From Bacillota bacterium (GTDB lineage Bacteria; Bacillota; Clostridia; Lachnospirales; Anaerotignaceae): a stretch of DNA of 64,000 nt. Each line of letters starts with the position of its first letter. Position 1 is the first letter of the stretch. The position numbers and the translations under genes are program-made. A model generated the notes under the pieces. It was not told the DNA's origin. It was given only the letters and a program-made list of their open reading frames with translations, and did not search any database. The DNA lies in assembly GCA_021768705.1 (NCBI GenBank), contig JAETUG010000004.1, positions 52,425 through 116,424 of the forward strand. Direction: 5' to 3'. Of the stretch, positions 28,607 through 36,478 are shown one piece after another.

Positions 28607-28886
28607 CCTCTCCTTTTTCTTCCTAAAATAAAGGTATGCCCCAAAGTCCCCAAAAATGCTTTTTTACATACTTTAGTAAAGAAAGGAGATGCTTGCCATG
28701 TCGTTGATGAAACACCTTTTTTCTGCGGAGCTGTCTGCATCTGCAGGCAAGCGGAGGCTCTCCATCGCTTTTCTGGATACGGGGATCTCTCCCGTGGAGG
28801 ATTTTATACTGCCGGAAAACCGTATCGTGGCTTTTCGGGATCTGATCAATGGGAAACGGGAGCCTTACGATGATAACGGTCACGGC

Positions 28887-28902
28887 ACCCATGTCACGGG
28901 TA
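28887..28902. repeat. Left 16-bp direct repeat (attL core)
   Basis: ACCCATGTCACGGGTA. Confidence 0.9.
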
Positions 28903-28928
28903 CAGAAAGCAATTCTTTCGGCAAACGA

Positions 28929-28962
28929 AAAACCCTCGTCTGTTTCCAGACGAGGGTTTTCC
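28929..28962. terminator. Hairpin AAAACCCTCGTCTGtttcCAGACGAGGGTTTT
   Basis: Perfect stem with A/T runs just inside the left end; plausible terminator for the TRAP operon and for reads from the protease fragment. Confidence 0.8.
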
Positions 28963-29014
28963 CGGAGTTCAATATGAGCTACATCTAATTGGGATAGATG
29001 AAGGTCATCGAGTT

Positions 29015-29104
29015 TCAACCATAATAGTAGAACATACAAAGTGCTGTCATCAAAATGATGCCGCAGTCCAGCATACTTTGTACAATTTTTTTTGAAATAC
29101 TCAT
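29015..29104 (-). CDS. 29-aa small hydrophobic peptide downstream of dctM
   Basis: RBS AAGGAG 9 nt upstream of ATG; MSISKKIVQSMLDCGIILMTALCMFYYYG*, manual translation. Confidence 0.55.
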   Translation of the reverse strand: MSISKKIVQSMLDCGIILMTALCMFYYYG

Positions 29105-29143
29105 ATCAATCAACTCCTTGAGAAGCTTTTAACAATACTGTTC

Positions 29144-30433
29144 TTAGCCCATCAGGTTAGGCAAGAACATGGAAATTGCAGGAATATAAGTGATGCACAG
29201 CAACGTGATAATCATCAGTGCCAGGAAAGGAATGATACCCTTGATGACAGTATCCAGCGTGGTTTCGCCTACACGGGATGCAACGAACAGGTTTACGCCC
29301 AGTGGAGGTGTGATGAAGCCGATGGCCAGGTTAACAACCATGATGATACCAAAGTGTGTAACATCTACGCCCATTGCTGTTACAACGGGGTACAGGATAG
29401 GTGCCAGAATCATGATAGCACACAGCGTTTCCATGAAGCAGCCAACGATCAGCAGCAGGATGTTGATCAGCAGCAGGATAATGATCTTACTATCTGTCAG
29501 AGCCAGCATAGCAGATGCAACTGTGGTAGGGATACGGCCCAGTGTCAGGACTTTGGAGAAGCCTGCAGCACAGCCGATAACGATCAGGATGGATGCTGTT
29601 GTTTCACAAGCATTCTTTGTGCACTGGATCAGTTTTTTCACATCCAGTTCTCTGTAGATCAGACAGCCAACAATGATACTGTAGATAACGGATACAGCCG
29701 CTGCTTCTGTTGGTGTGAAGATACCACCGTAGATACCGCCCAGGATGATAACGGGAGACAGGATCGCCCAGAAGCCTTCTTTTGTTTCGTGAAGTGCTCT
29801 CTTTATGCTGAAGGGTTCGTCGTCACCTTTGTAGCCCATTTTCTTAGCGTATACATAGGAGTACAGAATCAGTACCAGACCGATCAGAATACCGGGTACG
29901 AAACCAGCCAGGAACAGAGTAGATACGGAGCTGTTTGTTGTTACAGCGTAAATTACCATAGGGATACTGGGAGGGATGATAACACCGATGGAACCGGCTG
30001 CTGCGATCAGAGCCAGTACGAATTTTTTATCATAGCCTTTTTCCAGCATTGTGGGGATAACCATACCACCTACAGCAGCAACTGTAGCGGGACCGGAACC
30101 GGAAATCGCTGCGAAGAACATACATACAACGACTGTTACGATTGCCAGACCACCCTGGATTCTGCCGAAGAATACGTTGGCCAGATTCAGCAGTCTCTTG
30201 GAGATACCGCCGCCGCCCATCAGTTCACCGGCAAAGATGAAGAAGGGGATCGCCATGGTAGGGAAAGAGTCACAGCCGGTTACCATGTTCTGTGCAACAA
30301 AGCCCAGTGTCAGCTGTTTTGTATAAAGGATATAGCCCAGAGATGCAATACCCAGGGAGAAACCGATGGGAACTGTCAGCACCAGACATGCAATCAATGT
30401 AAGAAATACTACTGCAGCAATAGAACCTGTCAT
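29144..30433 (-). CDS. dctM: TRAP transporter large permease (DctM)
   Basis: 12-TM-like; PTMAIPFFIFAGELMGGGGISKRLLNLANVFFGRIQGGLAIVTVVVCMFFAAISGSGPATVAAVG. Confidence 0.95.
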   Translation of the reverse strand: MTGSIAAVVFLTLIACLVLTVPIGFSLGIASLGYILYTKQLTLGFVAQNMVTGCDSFPTMAIPFFIFAGELMGGGGISKRLLNLANVFFGRIQGGLAIVTVVVCMFFAAISGSGPATVAAVGGMVIPTMLEKGYDKKFVLALIAAAGSIGVIIPPSIPMVIYAVTTNSSVSTLFLAGFVPGILIGLVLILYSYVYAKKMGYKGDDEPFSIKRALHETKEGFWAILSPVIILGGIYGGIFTPTEAAAVSVIYSIIVGCLIYRELDVKKLIQCTKNACETTASILIVIGCAAGFSKVLTLGRIPTTVASAMLALTDSKIIILLLINILLLIVGCFMETLCAIMILAPILYPVVTAMGVDVTHFGIIMVVNLAIGFITPPLGVNLFVASRVGETTLDTVIKGIIPFLALMIITLLCITYIPAISMFLPNLMG

Positions 30434-30918
30434 GCTTCAGCCACCTCCTCGTGATTTTTCAATGCTTTTACGCGTCTAACGATACACTGGATCTGACGGA
30501 TCGCTGTCAACGCCATACCGATCATGGGTGCAGCATATACAAACTGCATGGGGATACGCATAGCGGGAGACATCTGACCAGACCAGGCGATTTTGCCGAA
30601 TACAGTATAGCCTGTAACCGCAATGAAGATAGCGAAGCCCAGAACGATCAGTTCGCTGAGGATTTCAATATAAGGACGTGCTTTTTTAGGATACAGATTG
30701 ATCGCAGCGTCGATACGGATATGTTTTTCTCTTCTTGCTGTGTAACTTACAGAGAAGTATACCAGCCATACGAACATATATCTTGCCAATTCTTCAGACC
30801 ATGTCAGGGAGCTCTGGAATACATAACGCATAACTACCTGAACGAAAATAACGATACTCATTGCAAAAATCAGTGGAATCATGAAAAATTCTTCCAAATG
30901 ATCCATAAACCATTTCAT
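30430..30918 (-). CDS. dctQ: TRAP transporter small permease (DctQ)
   Basis: VVMRYVFQSSLTWSEELARYMFVWLVYFSVSYTARREKHIRID; overlaps dctM. Confidence 0.94.
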   Translation of the reverse strand: MKWFMDHLEEFFMIPLIFAMSIVIFVQVVMRYVFQSSLTWSEELARYMFVWLVYFSVSYTARREKHIRIDAAINLYPKKARPYIEILSELIVLGFAIFIAVTGYTVFGKIAWSGQMSPAMRIPMQFVYAAPMIGMALTAIRQIQCIVRRVKALKNHEEVAEA

Positions 30919-30940
30919 TGTTTTTCCGCCCCTTTCCTAA

Positions 30941-32065
30941 TTAACCTTCAGCAGGGAATTTTGCCTTTGCTTTTTCCACTTCGCTGTACAGCAGGTCTAC
31001 AACAGAAGGATCTGTTACTTTCTCGTAAGCCATTTCCTTCAGACCTTCACAAGCTGCCACCATTTCTGCTTTTGCTTCGGGGGACAGGTCGCTGTATTCC
31101 ATGGAACCGCAATTTTTGATGTTTTCGATGGCAACCGCTTCGTATTCGGAACATCTTTCACGTTCGTAAGCAACTGCTTCGTCGGAAACCTTCAGTACGA
31201 TTTCCTGCTGTTCGGGTGTCAGACCATCGAATTTATCCTTACTCATCAGGATCAGGTAAGGAGAATAGATGTGTTTTGTATATGTATAGTGGCTCTGTAC
31301 TTCATAGAATTTTGTCTGCCATGTCAGTTCGGCGCCGTTATCCTGTGCGTCTACTGTTTTCTGCTGCAGTGCTGTAAACAGTTCAGTGAAGGCCATGGGT
31401 GTGGGGTTTGCACCGTAGTTTTTCCACTGCTGCAGCTGCAGTTCGTTTTCCATGATACGGATTTTGATACCCTGCAGATCGGACATGGAGTTGATGGGTT
31501 TGTTGGTGGACAGAGTACGGAAGGAGTTTTCCTGCCACTGCAGCAGTTTAAAGCCGGAATCTTCCAGGCCTTCTGCCAATCTGTCGCCCAGAGGGCCATC
31601 CAAAACTTCGTATACCTGCTGTTTGTTATCGAACAGCCAAGGGATATCCAGACAGAAGATATCATTTTCAAAAGAAGCTACTGTTGCGTTTGTTGCCAGT
31701 ACGATGTCGTAGTTACCAAACTGGCAGCCTTCCAACAGTTCACGTTCAGAACCAAGTACGTTGTCAGTGTAAATATCGCAGCTTAATGTGCCGCCGGATT
31801 CCTGTTCCAGACGCATTTTGAAGAATTTTGCAGCGTCGATTGTCGCAGGAGCGTTACCCAGTGCGTAGATGAAATGATAGCAGTCATCTGTCAGTTCTAC
31901 GCCGGATTCAAAGTTTACAGGTTCTACTTTCTTTTCTACAAAATCTGTATTTGTTGCTGTTGTGTTTTCGTCTGTTGCAGCTTCATCAGAAGAACCGCCG
32001 CAGCCGGCCAGACCAAACACTGTGACCGCCGCCAACATGGCAGCCAGACCTCTTTTTAAGATCAT
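30941..32065 (-). CDS. dctP: TRAP transporter substrate-binding lipoprotein (DctP)
   Basis: Lipobox VFGLAGCGG; SDLQGIKIRIMENELQLQQWKNYGANPTPMAFTELFTALQQKTVDAQDNG. Confidence 0.95.
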   Translation of the reverse strand: MILKRGLAAMLAAVTVFGLAGCGGSSDEAATDENTTATNTDFVEKKVEPVNFESGVELTDDCYHFIYALGNAPATIDAAKFFKMRLEQESGGTLSCDIYTDNVLGSERELLEGCQFGNYDIVLATNATVASFENDIFCLDIPWLFDNKQQVYEVLDGPLGDRLAEGLEDSGFKLLQWQENSFRTLSTNKPINSMSDLQGIKIRIMENELQLQQWKNYGANPTPMAFTELFTALQQKTVDAQDNGAELTWQTKFYEVQSHYTYTKHIYSPYLILMSKDKFDGLTPEQQEIVLKVSDEAVAYERERCSEYEAVAIENIKNCGSMEYSDLSPEAKAEMVAACEGLKEMAYEKVTDPSVVDLLYSEVEKAKAKFPAEG

Positions 32066-32635
32066 ACAATTCCCTCCTCAATATTGAACTGATTAGCCCG
32101 GTATGTGTTGCTTCTCTCAATCCGTTTTCCTTTCATTTGGACCAATGGAAAACGGAAGGTTTCTTTTGTACTGTTGCTTTGTTTTTTCTTTTGTAACACA
32201 AAATCCACTTAACAAAACTTCTTTTTTCGCGAAAAAAACTTTTTAAAGACTTAAAACGTCTTTTTTTGCATTATAATACTCTAATTTTCCAGTGTCAATA
32301 AACAATAAATCCAAAAAGAAGTTGTTTTTTCGTCTAAATTAAACTCTTTTTTGGTAAAATCAACTAAATTTATATCAATTTCATCTTTTCCGTGTCTTTC
32401 ACGAGACAACTTTTGTCCCATATGTGACTTCCATTTTGCAGTTTTGCAGTTATTTTTGATCGAAAATAAAGTTTTAAAATCATTTTTTATTTTTTTCTAT
32501 GTCTCAAAATCAAAAAAAGATGTTGTTTTTTAAAAATCAATAGACTTTTTTAAAACAAAGGTGTATAATATAAAATACGTTATTGAGGAACCTGCCTTTC
32601 AGGGAATAGTAGAATTTGAAAGAAGGTGCGATATT

Positions 32636-33349
32636 TTGAAGGGAACTGATCGCAGTGACGAATCAGCAGGGAAAAAACTCACACTGACAGATAAAATCTA
32701 TCAGGATATCAAGGATGATATCTCATCTAAGGCATTCCAGCCTGGGGAAAAATTAAACATCAAAGAACTTGCCAGGAAATATCAGGTTAGCGATACACCG
32801 GTAAAACAAGCCTTACAACGGCTGGCAGAAGAAAAACTGGTCATCAATACACCCAATAAGGGTATGAGTGTTCGGGCGTTGACACCTCATGAACTGCAGG
32901 ATATTTTCGATATGCGACTGATGATGGATACCTTTTTCATAAAGGATATCGTTACAACGCTGAACTATAATCAGGCTCTGCGCCAGCAGCTGATCGACTG
33001 TCTGGAAGCGCAGCGCAAATTCATTGAAACCGATGATTCCAATCACAAACCCGATGAATTCTTTGAACTGGATATGGATTTTCATACATTATATTTGGCG
33101 GCTTCCGGCAACCAGAAAGCCGTAGATGTTTTCAGAGATCTGCAGCCCTTTACTTATGCTTCCGGCACATATGTCAGTCAGCCTCATTACAGAGACTGCG
33201 AATGTGTAGATGAACATCAGGCTATCCTGGATGCAGCATTGGCATCCGATCTCGATGCATTGGTAGCAGCAGTGACGACCCATCTGAATAATTCCAGCAA
33301 AGCATTGCAGTTGATCTTCAAGGTAAATCAGATGGTTTACCCCGAATAA
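32636..33349 (+). CDS. GntR/FCD-family transcriptional regulator (TTG start proposed)
   Basis: LTDKIYQDIKDDISSKAFQPGEKLNIKELARKYQVSDTPVKQALQRLAEEKLVINTPNKGMSVRALT; FCD-like C-terminus; divergent from dctP. Confidence 0.9.
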   Translation: MKGTDRSDESAGKKLTLTDKIYQDIKDDISSKAFQPGEKLNIKELARKYQVSDTPVKQALQRLAEEKLVINTPNKGMSVRALTPHELQDIFDMRLMMDTFFIKDIVTTLNYNQALRQQLIDCLEAQRKFIETDDSNHKPDEFFELDMDFHTLYLAASGNQKAVDVFRDLQPFTYASGTYVSQPHYRDCECVDEHQAILDAALASDLDALVAAVTTHLNNSSKALQLIFKVNQMVYPE

Positions 33350-33378
33350 AAAAAGAGTCCTTTCGGACTCTTTTTTGT
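33349..33378 (+). terminator. Terminator AAAAAAAGAGTCCtttcGGACTCTTTTTT after GntR gene
   Basis: Perfect stem and T-run. Confidence 0.8.
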
Positions 33379-33382
33379 TGAA

Positions 33383-33417
33383 ACGAAAACCATTCATTCG
33401 TAAAGCTTCGCCTTACT
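33383..33417. repeat. Hairpin repeat copy A (ACGAAAACCATTCATTCGTAAAGCTTCGCCTTACT)
   Basis: Nearly identical to copy B. Confidence 0.75.
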
Positions 33418-33467
33418 TCTATGCCCTAACAGGTTCACAGTCCTTCGGACTATGTGATGTCTATCTT

Positions 33468-33521
33468 ACGAAAACCATTCATTCGTAAGGCTTTGCCTTA
33501 CTCATGTGCTTGCTCCGCAAG
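33468..33521. repeat. Hairpin repeat copy B (CATTCGTAAGGCTTTGCCTTACTCATGTGCTTGCTCCGCAAG)
   Basis: Shares the 5' part with copy A and the 3' part with copy C. Confidence 0.8.
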
Positions 33522-33532
33522 CCTACGAAACA

Positions 33533-33582
33533 AAAAAAGCCCACGATCAAGCATAAATGCTTGATCGTGGGCTTTTTATTGT
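33533..33582. terminator. Hairpin AAAAAAAGCCCACGATCAAGCATaaATGCTTGATCGTGGGCTTTTT
   Basis: Long perfect stem; bidirectional. Confidence 0.8.
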
Positions 33583-33600
33583 TTCTATGGTTTTCTACGT

Positions 33601-34200
33601 TTAAATCACGTACAACAGCTGTGTCTGATGGGCTTCCATAGACATTTCTGTCCAATAAGTACGGAAGGTATCTTCGTCCAATTCCGCTTCATTCGTCAGC
33701 ACACAGATATCATAGGCCGTACCGCCTTCCTGCAGAGAGAAATCATCAAAAACTTTCAGAACCTCAAAGTTTCTTGTATAATAAAAATCCCGATCCTCAT
33801 CCTCAGATTCATATCCGCTTCTTGTTTCATCTGTTACCAGCAGATAGCCTGTCTCCACGCTATAGTACAAATAATCCAAGATTGCGCCATCAAACTGACT
33901 ATACTGGCAGATGACAACAGAAGTCTCCTTTCCCGCTTCACTGGCGGTCAGAAAGGCATCCCATGCTTCCTGCCCCCCTGCCACTGCGCCATCATTGATG
34001 GTAAAGAAGCCTTCCTCCACCGCAGTCTCTGCCGGAATTTCCGCAGGCTGTTCCTTCAAATACGCAAGCATCTCTTCCTCTTTCGCTTCTGCTGCTGTTT
34101 TCTGTGTTTCCTGTGTCGGTTCTGTCTCTGTTTTTCCGCAGCCCGCAACACCACAAACCATCATGGCAGCAAAAAGCACTGCTAACATTCTCTTTCTCAT
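33601..34200 (-). CDS. Hypothetical lipoprotein (200 codons)
   Basis: MRKRMLAVLFAAMMVCGVAGCGKTETEPTQE; 19 nt after the recombinase stop. Confidence 0.75.
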   Translation of the reverse strand: MRKRMLAVLFAAMMVCGVAGCGKTETEPTQETQKTAAEAKEEEMLAYLKEQPAEIPAETAVEEGFFTINDGAVAGGQEAWDAFLTASEAGKETSVVICQYSQFDGAILDYLYYSVETGYLLVTDETRSGYESEDEDRDFYYTRNFEVLKVFDDFSLQEGGTAYDICVLTNEAELDEDTFRTYWTEMSMEAHQTQLLYVI

Positions 34201-34219
34201 CTTTCCTTCCTCCTTAAAA

Positions 34220-35176
34220 TCACTTTTGTATTTCGACCACAGGGGAATTTCTCGTTCCAAAGGGCGATTTGCACCTTTGTTTCATCCTTCTCCCCACTGC
34301 ATCGAATATTTCCTGTTTTATGATAGCTTCGTGGGTATTTTCCACCACAATCCATCGATCTTTCGGCAATTCTCGGGTCTTTTTCTCCTTAAAGCTAATC
34401 TTTTCTTCTTTGCCCTGAGCCATGTGTCCCAGATAGACAGGATTTTGCAGGATCTTTCGTATCGTTCCCACAGACCATGTTTTGCAGTCCTTCCTGCCCA
34501 TGTCCTGCCCCCGCTGTTTCTTCACCTGGGTGGGCGTGGGGATCGCCTCTGCCGTCAATCGTTCTGCAATCATTTTACAGGAAAGCCCCGATAAGTACAA
34601 GTCATATATTTTTTCCACGATCTGCGCCGTTTCCCGATCCACGATCAAATGATGGCGGCAGGCAGGATCTTTCAAATAACCATAGGGAGCATAATTGCCA
34701 AGAAACTGCCCCTCCTCCATCTTGCGGCGAAATACGGCCCGAATATTTTCCGAAAGCTCCTCTGAATACCATTCATTCACCAGGCTGTTGATCTGCCGTG
34801 CTTTTTTGTTGGCCCGCAAAGCCGTATCCACATGATCCACCACCGTGATAAAACGGATGCCCCATAAGGGAAACAATTCGTGGAAATATCGTTCCGCCGT
34901 GACGGCGTTTCTGGTAAAACGGGATTGGGTCTTGCATAATAGGATGGAGAATTTCCCTTCTTCCGCTTCTTTCAACATCTGCCGAAAGGCAGGTCTGTCC
35001 TCCCGCAGACCAGAATAATCCTCATCGGCATAAATGCCATAGACCCCCCAGCCTTGCTTATGGGCATATTCCAAGAGAAGGGCTTTCTGATTCTGGATGC
35101 TTTCGCTTTCTGCCACGCCCTTTTCCCGATCCTCTACAGAAAGCCTGCAATAGATGGCCGCTGTTTCCTGCTTCAT
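34220..35176 (-). CDS. Serine recombinase (resolvase N-terminal + Recombinase domain), short form lacking zinc ribbon
   Basis: AAIYCRLSVEDREKGVAESESIQNQKALLLEYAHKQGW...YADEDYSGLREDRPAFRQMLKEAEEGKFSILLCKTQSRFTRNAVTAERYF; LQNPVYLGHMAQGKEEKISFKEKKTRELPKDRWIVVENTHEAII. Confidence 0.93.
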   Translation of the reverse strand: MKQETAAIYCRLSVEDREKGVAESESIQNQKALLLEYAHKQGWGVYGIYADEDYSGLREDRPAFRQMLKEAEEGKFSILLCKTQSRFTRNAVTAERYFHELFPLWGIRFITVVDHVDTALRANKKARQINSLVNEWYSEELSENIRAVFRRKMEEGQFLGNYAPYGYLKDPACRHHLIVDRETAQIVEKIYDLYLSGLSCKMIAERLTAEAIPTPTQVKKQRGQDMGRKDCKTWSVGTIRKILQNPVYLGHMAQGKEEKISFKEKKTRELPKDRWIVVENTHEAIIKQEIFDAVGRRMKQRCKSPFGTRNSPVVEIQK

Positions 35177-35245
35177 GCCCGCCGCTCCTTTTTTCTTTCT
35201 TAGAAAAAATATACGGTAATCCTTTTATTTTATCCATAAAAAAAG

Positions 35246-35289
35246 CATTCGTAAGGCTTTGCCTTACTCATTGATTTGCTCCGCAAATC
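35246..35289. repeat. Hairpin repeat copy C (CATTCGTAAGGCTTTGCCTTACTCATTGATTTGCTCCGCAAATC)
   Basis: Matches copy B at 33480 with a compensated second stem. Confidence 0.8.
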
Positions 35290-35377
35290 TTTTTCAATTC
35301 CTATATTGACTGCACCTTACAAGCAAAGTCAGTCAATACAGGAACTGAAATGCTTTTCTCCGCTTTTACAAAAAAAA

Positions 35378-35405
35378 CCGCAATCGATGGATGCGGTTTT
35401 TAAGC
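35378..35405 (-). terminator. Hairpin AAAAACCGCAatcgatggaTGCGGTTTTT
   Basis: Stem with flanking A/T runs, downstream of the zinc-ribbon gene. Confidence 0.6.
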
Positions 35406-35410
35406 AAATC

Positions 35411-35647
35411 TTAAAGTCCTCTGAAGATATATTTCTGACACTTGGGACAAACAGAATCCTCATGAATCTTGCGGCGGCAATCCAGCCCTTTGCCACAATG
35501 GGGACATCTATACAGTTTTACTTCCAGGAAAATATCCAAGGCTACAATTATAATCATCAACGGGATATTCCTCGCAAATACGAAAGCCATCGCCGCCAGC
35601 GCATAAAGCACCAAACTTATTTTCTGGAATTTTTTAAACTTCGCCAT
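35411..35647 (-). CDS. Small membrane protein with C-terminal zinc ribbon
   Basis: MAKFKKFQKISLVLYALAAMAFVFARNIPLMIIIVALDIFLEVKLYRCPHCGKGLDCRRKIHEDSVCPKCQKYIFRGL. Confidence 0.7.
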   Translation of the reverse strand: MAKFKKFQKISLVLYALAAMAFVFARNIPLMIIIVALDIFLEVKLYRCPHCGKGLDCRRKIHEDSVCPKCQKYIFRGL

Positions 35648-35782
35648 CAGCGCAGTTCCTTTTTCTGATAAGGCTTGCACAATTTTTCCCTCCTTTTTTC
35701 GGATTCTTTCTCTTTATTTTACAACAAATGTATGCAAAATGCAATAAGAAAGAGAACTTGTCCCGAAAAGGAGGAATATCCC

Positions 35783-36478
35783 GTGACCCATGTCACGGGT
35801 ATCGCCTGCGGTAATGGCTGGAATTCGGACGGAATCTATCGAGGCATCGCCCCCGATGTAAATATCGTTTCCGTAAAAATATTGGATCGGTATGGGCAGG
35901 GAAATTCCACCCATGCGGTACTGGGTCTCAGATGGATAATGGACAATGCCCGTAAATATAATATTAAAGTAGTAAATCTCTCCATCGGCACCAATGACAG
36001 AAAAGTCAACCTGCCTTTGAAGGAAGCCGTCGAACGGCTCTGGCAAATGGGCATCGTGGTAGTGGCTGCCGCAGGAAATCCCGATGGAAGAAACGGCTAT
36101 CGTCCGCCTCCTGCCGTCAGCAGCGGGGTCATTTCCGTTGGGGCATGGGAGGACAGAAGCTATTTCCAGACTTCCTCCTTTTCCTTTTTTACCCAAGGGG
36201 AAATGCCCGACCTTTGGGCACCCGGGGAAAATGTCATTTCCGTCCTTTCCCCGGATTATGATTTTAGCCTGCCCAATCGCAGCCGCAGCAGCATCGTCAA
36301 GCAAAACTATATCACCATGAGCGGTGCATCTATGGCAACGCCCCTCATCAGTGGTGCAGCTGCCCTGCTTTTGGCACGAAATCCCCGTGCCCGCCCCGCA
36401 GAGATCAAAAAACTGCTGCTGCAAAAAGCCAGACCCTTCGGCGGACTTCTGACAGAGGAGGTCTGCCGCACATTTTGA
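35783..36478 (+). pseudogene. Subtilisin-like (S8) serine protease, 3' fragment
   Basis: THVTGIACGNGWNSDGIYRGIAPDVNIVSVKILDRYGQG...VVNLSIGTN...VVAAAGNPDG...MSGASMATPLISGAAALLL; contains the Ser motif; lacks Asp; possible GTG restart at 35783. Confidence 0.9.
35786..35801. repeat. Right 16-bp direct repeat (attR core)
   Basis: ACCCATGTCACGGGTA, identical to 28887-28902. Confidence 0.9.

Follow-up and report, generated by a model that had tools for sequence, protein, structure and literature searches.

The question raised by this locus is why a gene for an S8 (subtilisin-like) protease lies in two pieces, separated by an element that encodes a recombinase, and whether the two pieces are ever made into one gene. 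The locus is in the window, by which we mean the whole 64-kb stretch of DNA that was analysed, bases 52425-116424 of contig 5 in a metagenome-assembled genome (MAG) of 1.86 Mb that is 85% complete and whose relatives, the Anaerotignaceae in the order Lachnospirales, are gut and sediment bacteria with spore-formation genes. We propose that this is an old, vertically inherited intervening element of the skin/sigK type in a new host gene and that it is excised in the sporulating mother cell, an explanation that we consider likely.

A preliminary description of the window had reported an exact 16-bp direct repeat bounding a 6899-bp insert, with the Asp and His motifs of the protease to its left, GASMATP to its right, and an 882-bp open reading frame (ORF) without a frameshift once the insert is taken out, and all of this was confirmed. 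The two copies of the repeat, ACCCATGTCACGGGTA, are spaced 6,899 bp apart and there is no further copy in the assembly. The Asp and His motifs (AFLDTG ... YDDNGHGTHVTG) are in the left part of the gene, and the right part runs on past the Ser motif. Joining at the repeat gives an in-frame ORF of 882 bp, stop codon included, for a protein of 293 amino acids with the full S8 triad, namely, Asp in AFLDTG (DTG), His in GHGTH, and Ser in GASMATP. A complete catalytic triad is impossible in either half before joining and, since the crossover falls within the catalytic His codon, the enzyme would be inactive before excision. The right half alone matches PF00082 (E 2e-36, profile 58-273), and a whole homologue in a related genus (L074, 294 amino acids) matches the same family over its full length (E 9e-42, 1-277 of 288) and has as its best relatives of solved structure subtilisin-like proteases such as 3afg. 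By our own estimate about 0.5 pairs of exact 16-bp repeats are expected by chance in 64 kb; the repeat alone is not improbable and draws its weight from where it lies in the gene and from the comparison with other genomes.

Searches for the 5' half, for the 3' half, and for the recombinase covered 58 Anaerotignaceae genomes (labelled within G000-G073, with genera labelled g1-g33, G000 being the window genome and g1 its genus). Both protease halves were found and aligned in 51 of the 58, and the counts of split and whole genes rest on these 51. The gene is split at the identical codon in 37 genomes, which span at least 11 genera, and is uninterrupted in the other 14, where it reads ...YDDNGHGTHV... 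unbroken. The 37 split cases share ancestry and are not 37 separate events. Because the same two flanking proteins, of 152 and 142 amino acids, are conserved, the split and the uninterrupted genes are the same locus. An assembly fault is excluded because the split is present in single-contig assemblies matching complete chromosomes, those of Anaerotignum sp. MB30-C6, Chakrabartyella piscis, and Clostridium sp. MD294/ASF356; culturable anaerobes with the split locus are Anaerotignum propionicum, A. neopropionicum, and ASF356. The gap between the halves is 2.2 to 8.2 kb where it could be measured in a single stretch and, by map position, about 20 kb in G068 and 46 kb in G004. The proposal in the preliminary description that this is a site-specific insertion at a conserved coding motif is supported, and the whole gene that it had suggested looking for in related genomes is there in the 14 uninterrupted orthologues, with full-length alignment to S8 peptidases.

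Where the two halves would be joined was examined by comparing the left and right ends of the element in all 37 split genomes. The C and the A of the His codon, plus a C two bases earlier, are identical at both ends in 37 of 37, and all other positions near the junction vary between the ends in some genome. Since the repeat is shorter or imperfect in other genomes and CA is the sole invariant dinucleotide, the 16 bp in the window are an incidental identity around a probable 2-bp core. Serine recombinases use a 2-bp core (PMC10754689), and the crossover core here is probably CA. At the left end the codons for G-H-G-T are kept in every genome up to CA, and beyond it the sequence drifts: V, K, L, I, P or D may follow, and in four genomes the His codon has become one for Gln. 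At the right end it is the part before CA that drifts, the Thr codon being one for Ser or Ala in several genomes, and after CA all 37 read V-[T/A]-G-I. Taking the left end through CA and the right end after CA gives GHGTHV[T/A]GI in 37 of 37, all in frame, so that the exact restoration of the gene foreseen for the window extends, as a predicted join, to every split genome. This residue pattern fits only joining at CA and argues that selection acts on the joined gene and not on the halves in place. It is from this switch in conservation exactly at CA, the strongest evidence that excision really occurs, that we infer excision. Within the stretches tested, none of the split genomes has a stop codon or frameshift in either half, and both halves as well as the resident recombinase are under purifying selection: the ratio of nonsynonymous to synonymous substitution rates (dN/dS), when pairs of the same genus are compared, lies mostly at 0-0.3 in the 5' half (50 codons), with 0.42 and 0.67 in two closely related pairs that show very few changes; it is 0.03-0.21 in the 3' half and 0.05-0.24 in the short recombinase.

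The enzyme that would carry out the joining is most simply sought in the element itself. Its recombinase has complete resolvase and recombinase domains and stops where the zinc-ribbon domain would start; PF13408 was found in neither of two members of its clade that were tested, whereas both of the full-length relatives tested, proteins of 541-542 amino acids encoded at the same locus in other genomes, have it. Judging from its domains, it is not a complete phage-type large serine integrase, being without the zinc ribbon and the coiled coil. In a tree of 45 recombinases the 29 short ones (about 295-320 amino acids) form one clade with support of 100/99, whose branches follow the genera, and distances between recombinases correlate with those between protease 3' halves (Mantel r = 0.916, n = 26, p = 0.0005), the two having evolved at about equal rates. 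The best reading of these trees and distances is that the element is old and vertically inherited with metabolic cargo that changes, and the element with the short recombinase probably already existed in the common ancestor of at least g1, g2, g7, g8, g9, and g33, and of g11, where the recombinase now lies outside the split gene. In nine genomes full-length recombinases adjoin the 5' half, and some of these, G003 and G007 for example, also have the short one at the 3' half. The left junctions of G003 (C22/L054), G007 (C411/L060), and G004 (C7/L056) differ from the short-element junction, and the full-length recombinases beside the 5' half look like later insertions at the same site. The window genome has a second serine recombinase, a full-length one of about 541 amino acids, at G000:C37:2704-3624.

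Short recombinases were also seen away from the Anaerotignaceae protease locus. In g11, which includes ASF356, a recombinase of the resident clade stands free, with gltX-like genes on one side and thiM/thiE-like genes on the other, and no gene is obviously split by it (L169, L170, L171); since ThiM- and ThiE-like genes are also found within the S8 elements of G015 and G046, it seems that g11 is a genus in which a recombinase-thi unit moved out of the split gene. Two genomes of another family in the order, G347 (L198) and G373 (L199), have free-standing short recombinases of 309-318 amino acids and similar sequence, around which no recognisable split gene was found. In two Defluviitaleaceae MAGs (L143 and L149) an S8 gene is seemingly interrupted at the same motif, THxAG; in L149 a recombinase fragment of 63% identity lies about 8 kb upstream of the S8 gene, and the 5' half was sought in the available stretch and was not found. 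Comparison of the recombinases with viral contigs and phage records gave distant matches (22-45% identity) and no phage clearly using this site.

What else the element carries bears on how excision would be controlled. In the window it has no phage genes and is not prophage-like; it holds a tripartite ATP-independent periplasmic (TRAP) transporter, a GntR regulator, a lipoprotein, the recombinase, and a small zinc-ribbon protein, and its PHROGs matches are to recombinase/invertase families and to GntR-like regulators without assigned function. PADLOC returned generic subtilase/IetS matches and nothing else. The TRAP-GntR block is retained in elements of three genera, and the cargo of other elements includes ThiM-, ThiE-, ferritin- or MATE-like genes, named by eye from their translations. 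Among 17 elements from five genera the recombinase, with its antisense ORFs, is the sole gene common to all, and a recurring small gene for a directionality factor, sought in the same 17, was not found. The 89-aa zinc-ribbon protein was considered for this role and rejected, being missing in several genera. On this comparison excision would proceed without a recombination directionality factor encoded by the element. It is quite possible, although we would stop short of calling it probable, that the short enzyme is a domesticated developmental recombinase, which by losing its directionality-control domain would have become able to excise only, would need no factor from the element, and would have been kept for the age of the family as the essential partner of a permanently split gene that harbours metabolic cargo. 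A strong terminator-like hairpin just inside the left end would halt leftward transcription of the TRAP operon ahead of the protease half. A short repeat, ATTCGTAAGGCTTTGCCTTACT, occurs three times (33396-33417, 33481-33502, and 35247-35268), always inside the element and nowhere else in the window. The features of the locus are collected in Table 1.

Table 1. Positions in the window of the split S8 protease gene, its intervening element, and the neighbouring genes
Feature	Position	Strand	Basis or remark
Upstream neighbour, 152 aa	28148..28606	-	same neighbour at split and several whole loci; no Pfam/NCBIfam match
Sigma-K/sigma-E-like -10 box of the protease gene, CATACTTTA	28667..28675	+	CATAnnnT[A/G] consensus
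S8 protease 5' half with catalytic Asp, ending at CA of the catalytic His codon	28698..28891	+	sequence, alignment
Repeat, left copy (attL core region), presumed crossover CA 28890-28891	28887..28902	+	exact repeat, junction comparison
Terminator-like hairpin just inside the left end	28927..28962	-	-28.5 kcal/mol, z = -5.3
TRAP large permease DctM, cargo	29144..30433	-	PF06808, TIGR00786
TRAP small permease DctQ, cargo	30430..30918	-	PF04290
TRAP solute-binding protein DctP, cargo	30941..32065	-	PF03480, TIGR00787
GntR/FCD regulator, cargo	32633..33349	+	PF00392, PF07729
Lipoprotein-like protein, cargo	33601..34200	-	seen in elements of genus g1 and in no others
Short large-serine-type recombinase, 318 aa	34220..35176	-	PF00239 and PF07508 without PF13408; dN/dS; 29-member clade
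Sigma-E-like recombinase promoter GGATA-N15-CGTAT	35211..35235	-	9 short-recombinase genes of two genera
89-aa membrane/zinc-ribbon protein	35411..35680	-	frequent companion, not universal
Repeat, right copy (attR core region), presumed crossover CA 35789-35790	35786..35801	+	exact repeat, junction comparison
S8 protease 3' half with catalytic Ser GASMATP	35786..36478	+	PF00082; dN/dS 0.03-0.21
Downstream neighbour, 142 aa	36496..36924	+	same neighbour at split and several whole loci; no credible family

If the gene is rebuilt, the next question is when. The motif CATAnnnT[A/G] matches the -10 consensus of the mother-cell sigma factor sigma-K and is close to that of sigma-E. It is found 5' of the protease 5' half in nearly all genomes with a placeable start (12 genera), mostly at -31 to -54, whereas it is expected 0.00-0.23 times per genome in shuffled sequence and its background frequency is about 6% (3 of 48 genes in the window, 7 of 117 other genes). 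The exceptions are two g7 genomes that have CATACTAAT in its place and G008, where the start was placed too far downstream; in g4 the match is at -73, though CATAAAATA lies nearer to the start. Because the uninterrupted orthologues have the box as well, it is a feature of the protease gene and no part of the element. In g1 and g33 a sigma-E-like GGATA-N14-16-[CT][AG]TAT precedes the recombinase, with 0.00-0.01 matches expected per gene in shuffled sequence. SpoIIID is encoded in 57 of the 58 family genomes, that of the window among them, and sigma-K/E-type factors in all 58. Other mother-cell genes of the family are themselves in pieces. In three genomes, G022 (L172), G019 (L173), and G010 (L174/L175), spoIIID is in two parts (about codons 1-42 and 34-79), and fragments of it occur in nine more; pieces on the same contig are 6-30 kb apart with full-length serine recombinases of 505-553 amino acids in between, and in the window genome spoIIID is whole. 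Genes like sigK are, as is known from skin elements, in two pieces that overlap near codon 110-130 in at least G016 (C12:224282-244455), G023 (C83:22599-25849), and G046 (C5, C15). Thus, Anaerotignaceae use such elements repeatedly in mother-cell genes. Chakrabartyella piscis (G048, L176) has an intact spoIIID and several extra tandem copies of its first ~38 codons, with transposase-like and other genes nearby.

The sequence of events that we propose is as follows. The host gene would code for a small, cytoplasmic-looking S8 protease behind a mother-cell promoter of the sigma-K/sigma-E type. In the mother cell, sigma-E would drive expression of the recombinase, and the protease gene would be transcribed under sigma-K or sigma-E. 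The short recombinase would join attL with attR at the CA core within the catalytic His codon, releasing the element as a circle and rebuilding the protease gene exactly, and the mother cell would make the active protease, which may serve sporulation, and then lyse. Because the mother cell dies, the spore, and with it the germ line, would retain the element and its cargo, here the TRAP transporter and the GntR regulator. Excision is probably confined to the mother cell during sporulation. The genetic switch that the preliminary description had suggested is better regarded as a developmental, one-way event in the mother cell than as a reversible one.

Several observations weigh against this scheme. 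The promoter calls are consensus matches, and in g7, g8, g9, and g11 the recombinase either lacks the sigma-E-like box or has a different one. The window MAG has one sigma-K/E-like gene, at C16, beside another sporulation-type sigma gene, and sigma-K itself may lie in the unassembled part of this genome. Furthermore, G003, G004, and G007 seemingly carry a second element with a full-length recombinase at the left end, and in g11 the short recombinase is located elsewhere in the genome, outside the split gene; hence, the resident recombinase may not be the one at work in every genome.

Excision might also take place outside sporulation, as a phage-style switch or as phase variation in growing cells, with the protease turned on in a subpopulation. 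Junctions selected for excision are silent on its timing, the yin element of Clostridium botulinum is excised at all time points (PMC10747680), and the full-length recombinases and repeated insertion mean that the site is targeted by mobile elements too. We nevertheless regard excision in growing cells as improbable because the mother-cell-type -10 box stands before split and uninterrupted orthologues, because frequent loss during growth would endanger a TRAP operon that has been kept in three genera, and because spoIIID and sigK are also split in this family. It is far less probable still that an ordinary mobile insertion inactivated the gene and left the halves as relics, excision being theoretical only. 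Target-site preference is common among serine integrases, as that explanation would have it, but it is already contradicted by the purifying selection on both halves, by 37 genomes free of stops and frameshifts, and by conservation that stops and starts exactly at CA.

The halves could be thought to work unexcised, either through assembly of two separate polypeptides or because a GTG of its own allows the 3' half to be translated. In the window AGGAGG and GTG do precede the 3' half, and GTG stands before the Thr codon in 23 of the 37 split genomes. However, the Shine-Dalgarno-like sequence is not retained in close relatives, some right halves have no start codon at that position, and the left tail past CA is unconserved and ends within a few codons in some genomes. 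In addition, the right repeat copy sits within a perfect inverted repeat, CCCGTGA-CCCATG-TCACGGG, so that the GTG is part of the recombination site. A private start codon for the 3' half was rejected as it is not conserved, and we give function without excision very little credence. Finally, related elements might have inserted repeatedly and independently at a hot spot in place of one ancient resident. This would fit with the nine genomes that have full-length recombinases at this site, with the occurrence of both split and whole genes within g7, g13, g10, and g4, and with cargo that varies between genera. As an account of the short class it is very unlikely, since the short recombinases are a single well-supported clade that follows the genera with r=0.92 to the host gene; for the minority with full-length recombinases it is probably true, and both processes probably occur.

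How, then, does this element compare with known ones under the explanation we prefer, mother-cell excision of an inherited element? As in skin-type elements, one gene is split, the join is in frame at a short core, a serine recombinase is encoded, and the host has endospore genes; the likeness that the preliminary description saw to them is supported by the comparison. The skin element in sigK of Bacillus subtilis and Clostridioides difficile is excised during sporulation (PMC5025042). With it the present element shares a recombinase beside a gene half and, as predicted from sequence, precise restoration and germ-line retention (PMC5025042), but here the host gene codes for a protease and not a sigma factor, the recombinase is without the C-terminal zinc-ribbon/coiled-coil region, there is no recognisable directionality factor on the element, and the element is not prophage-like and is kept across at least seven genera. 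The gin element in gerE of Bacillus cereus ATCC 10987 is similarly non-prophage, with serine recombinase(s) and a short core repeat, and its joining is sporulation-specific (PMC5595907); gin uses the 58-kDa GirC and a 42-aa factor, GirX, whereas here there is a recombinase of ~300 amino acids and no other gene common to the elements. The yin element interrupts yabG, a gene for a sporulation protease, in that case a cysteine protease, in C. botulinum V73, and its excision restores the gene (PMC10747680), as does excision of SPbeta from spsM in B. subtilis (PMC4191935). Both are prophages or prophage-like, and yin was described as unique to one strain, whereas the present element is family-wide and inherited and its host gene codes for an S8 serine protease. 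The fdxN element of heterocyst-forming cyanobacteria is also excised developmentally, in a terminal cell type, by a serine recombinase, XisF, which is a remote relative of the window recombinase (NCBIfam NF041201, well below cut-off) and is longer (model of 465 amino acids); the organism, the gene, and the developmental programme are different.

We found no description of this split in the open papers that were searched, subscription papers being outside the search. What is new relative to known intervening elements is the target gene, the compact recombinase, the lack of an evident directionality gene, and the family-wide vertical retention. A laboratory mutant of the Listeria LI integrase with its coiled coil deleted recombines attL with attR without a directionality factor, at low efficiency, and phiC31 integrase is inactive once its coiled coil is removed (PMC10754689); here, unlike in the LI mutant, the loss is natural and takes in the whole zinc-ribbon region. 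With 37 natural att pairs and some 30 compact recombinases, the family offers a data set on how serine recombinases set direction when the usual C-terminal domain is absent. Knowledge of gene-intervening elements comes mainly from single strains and prophage-like cases, and in much of this family the split gene is a stable trait.

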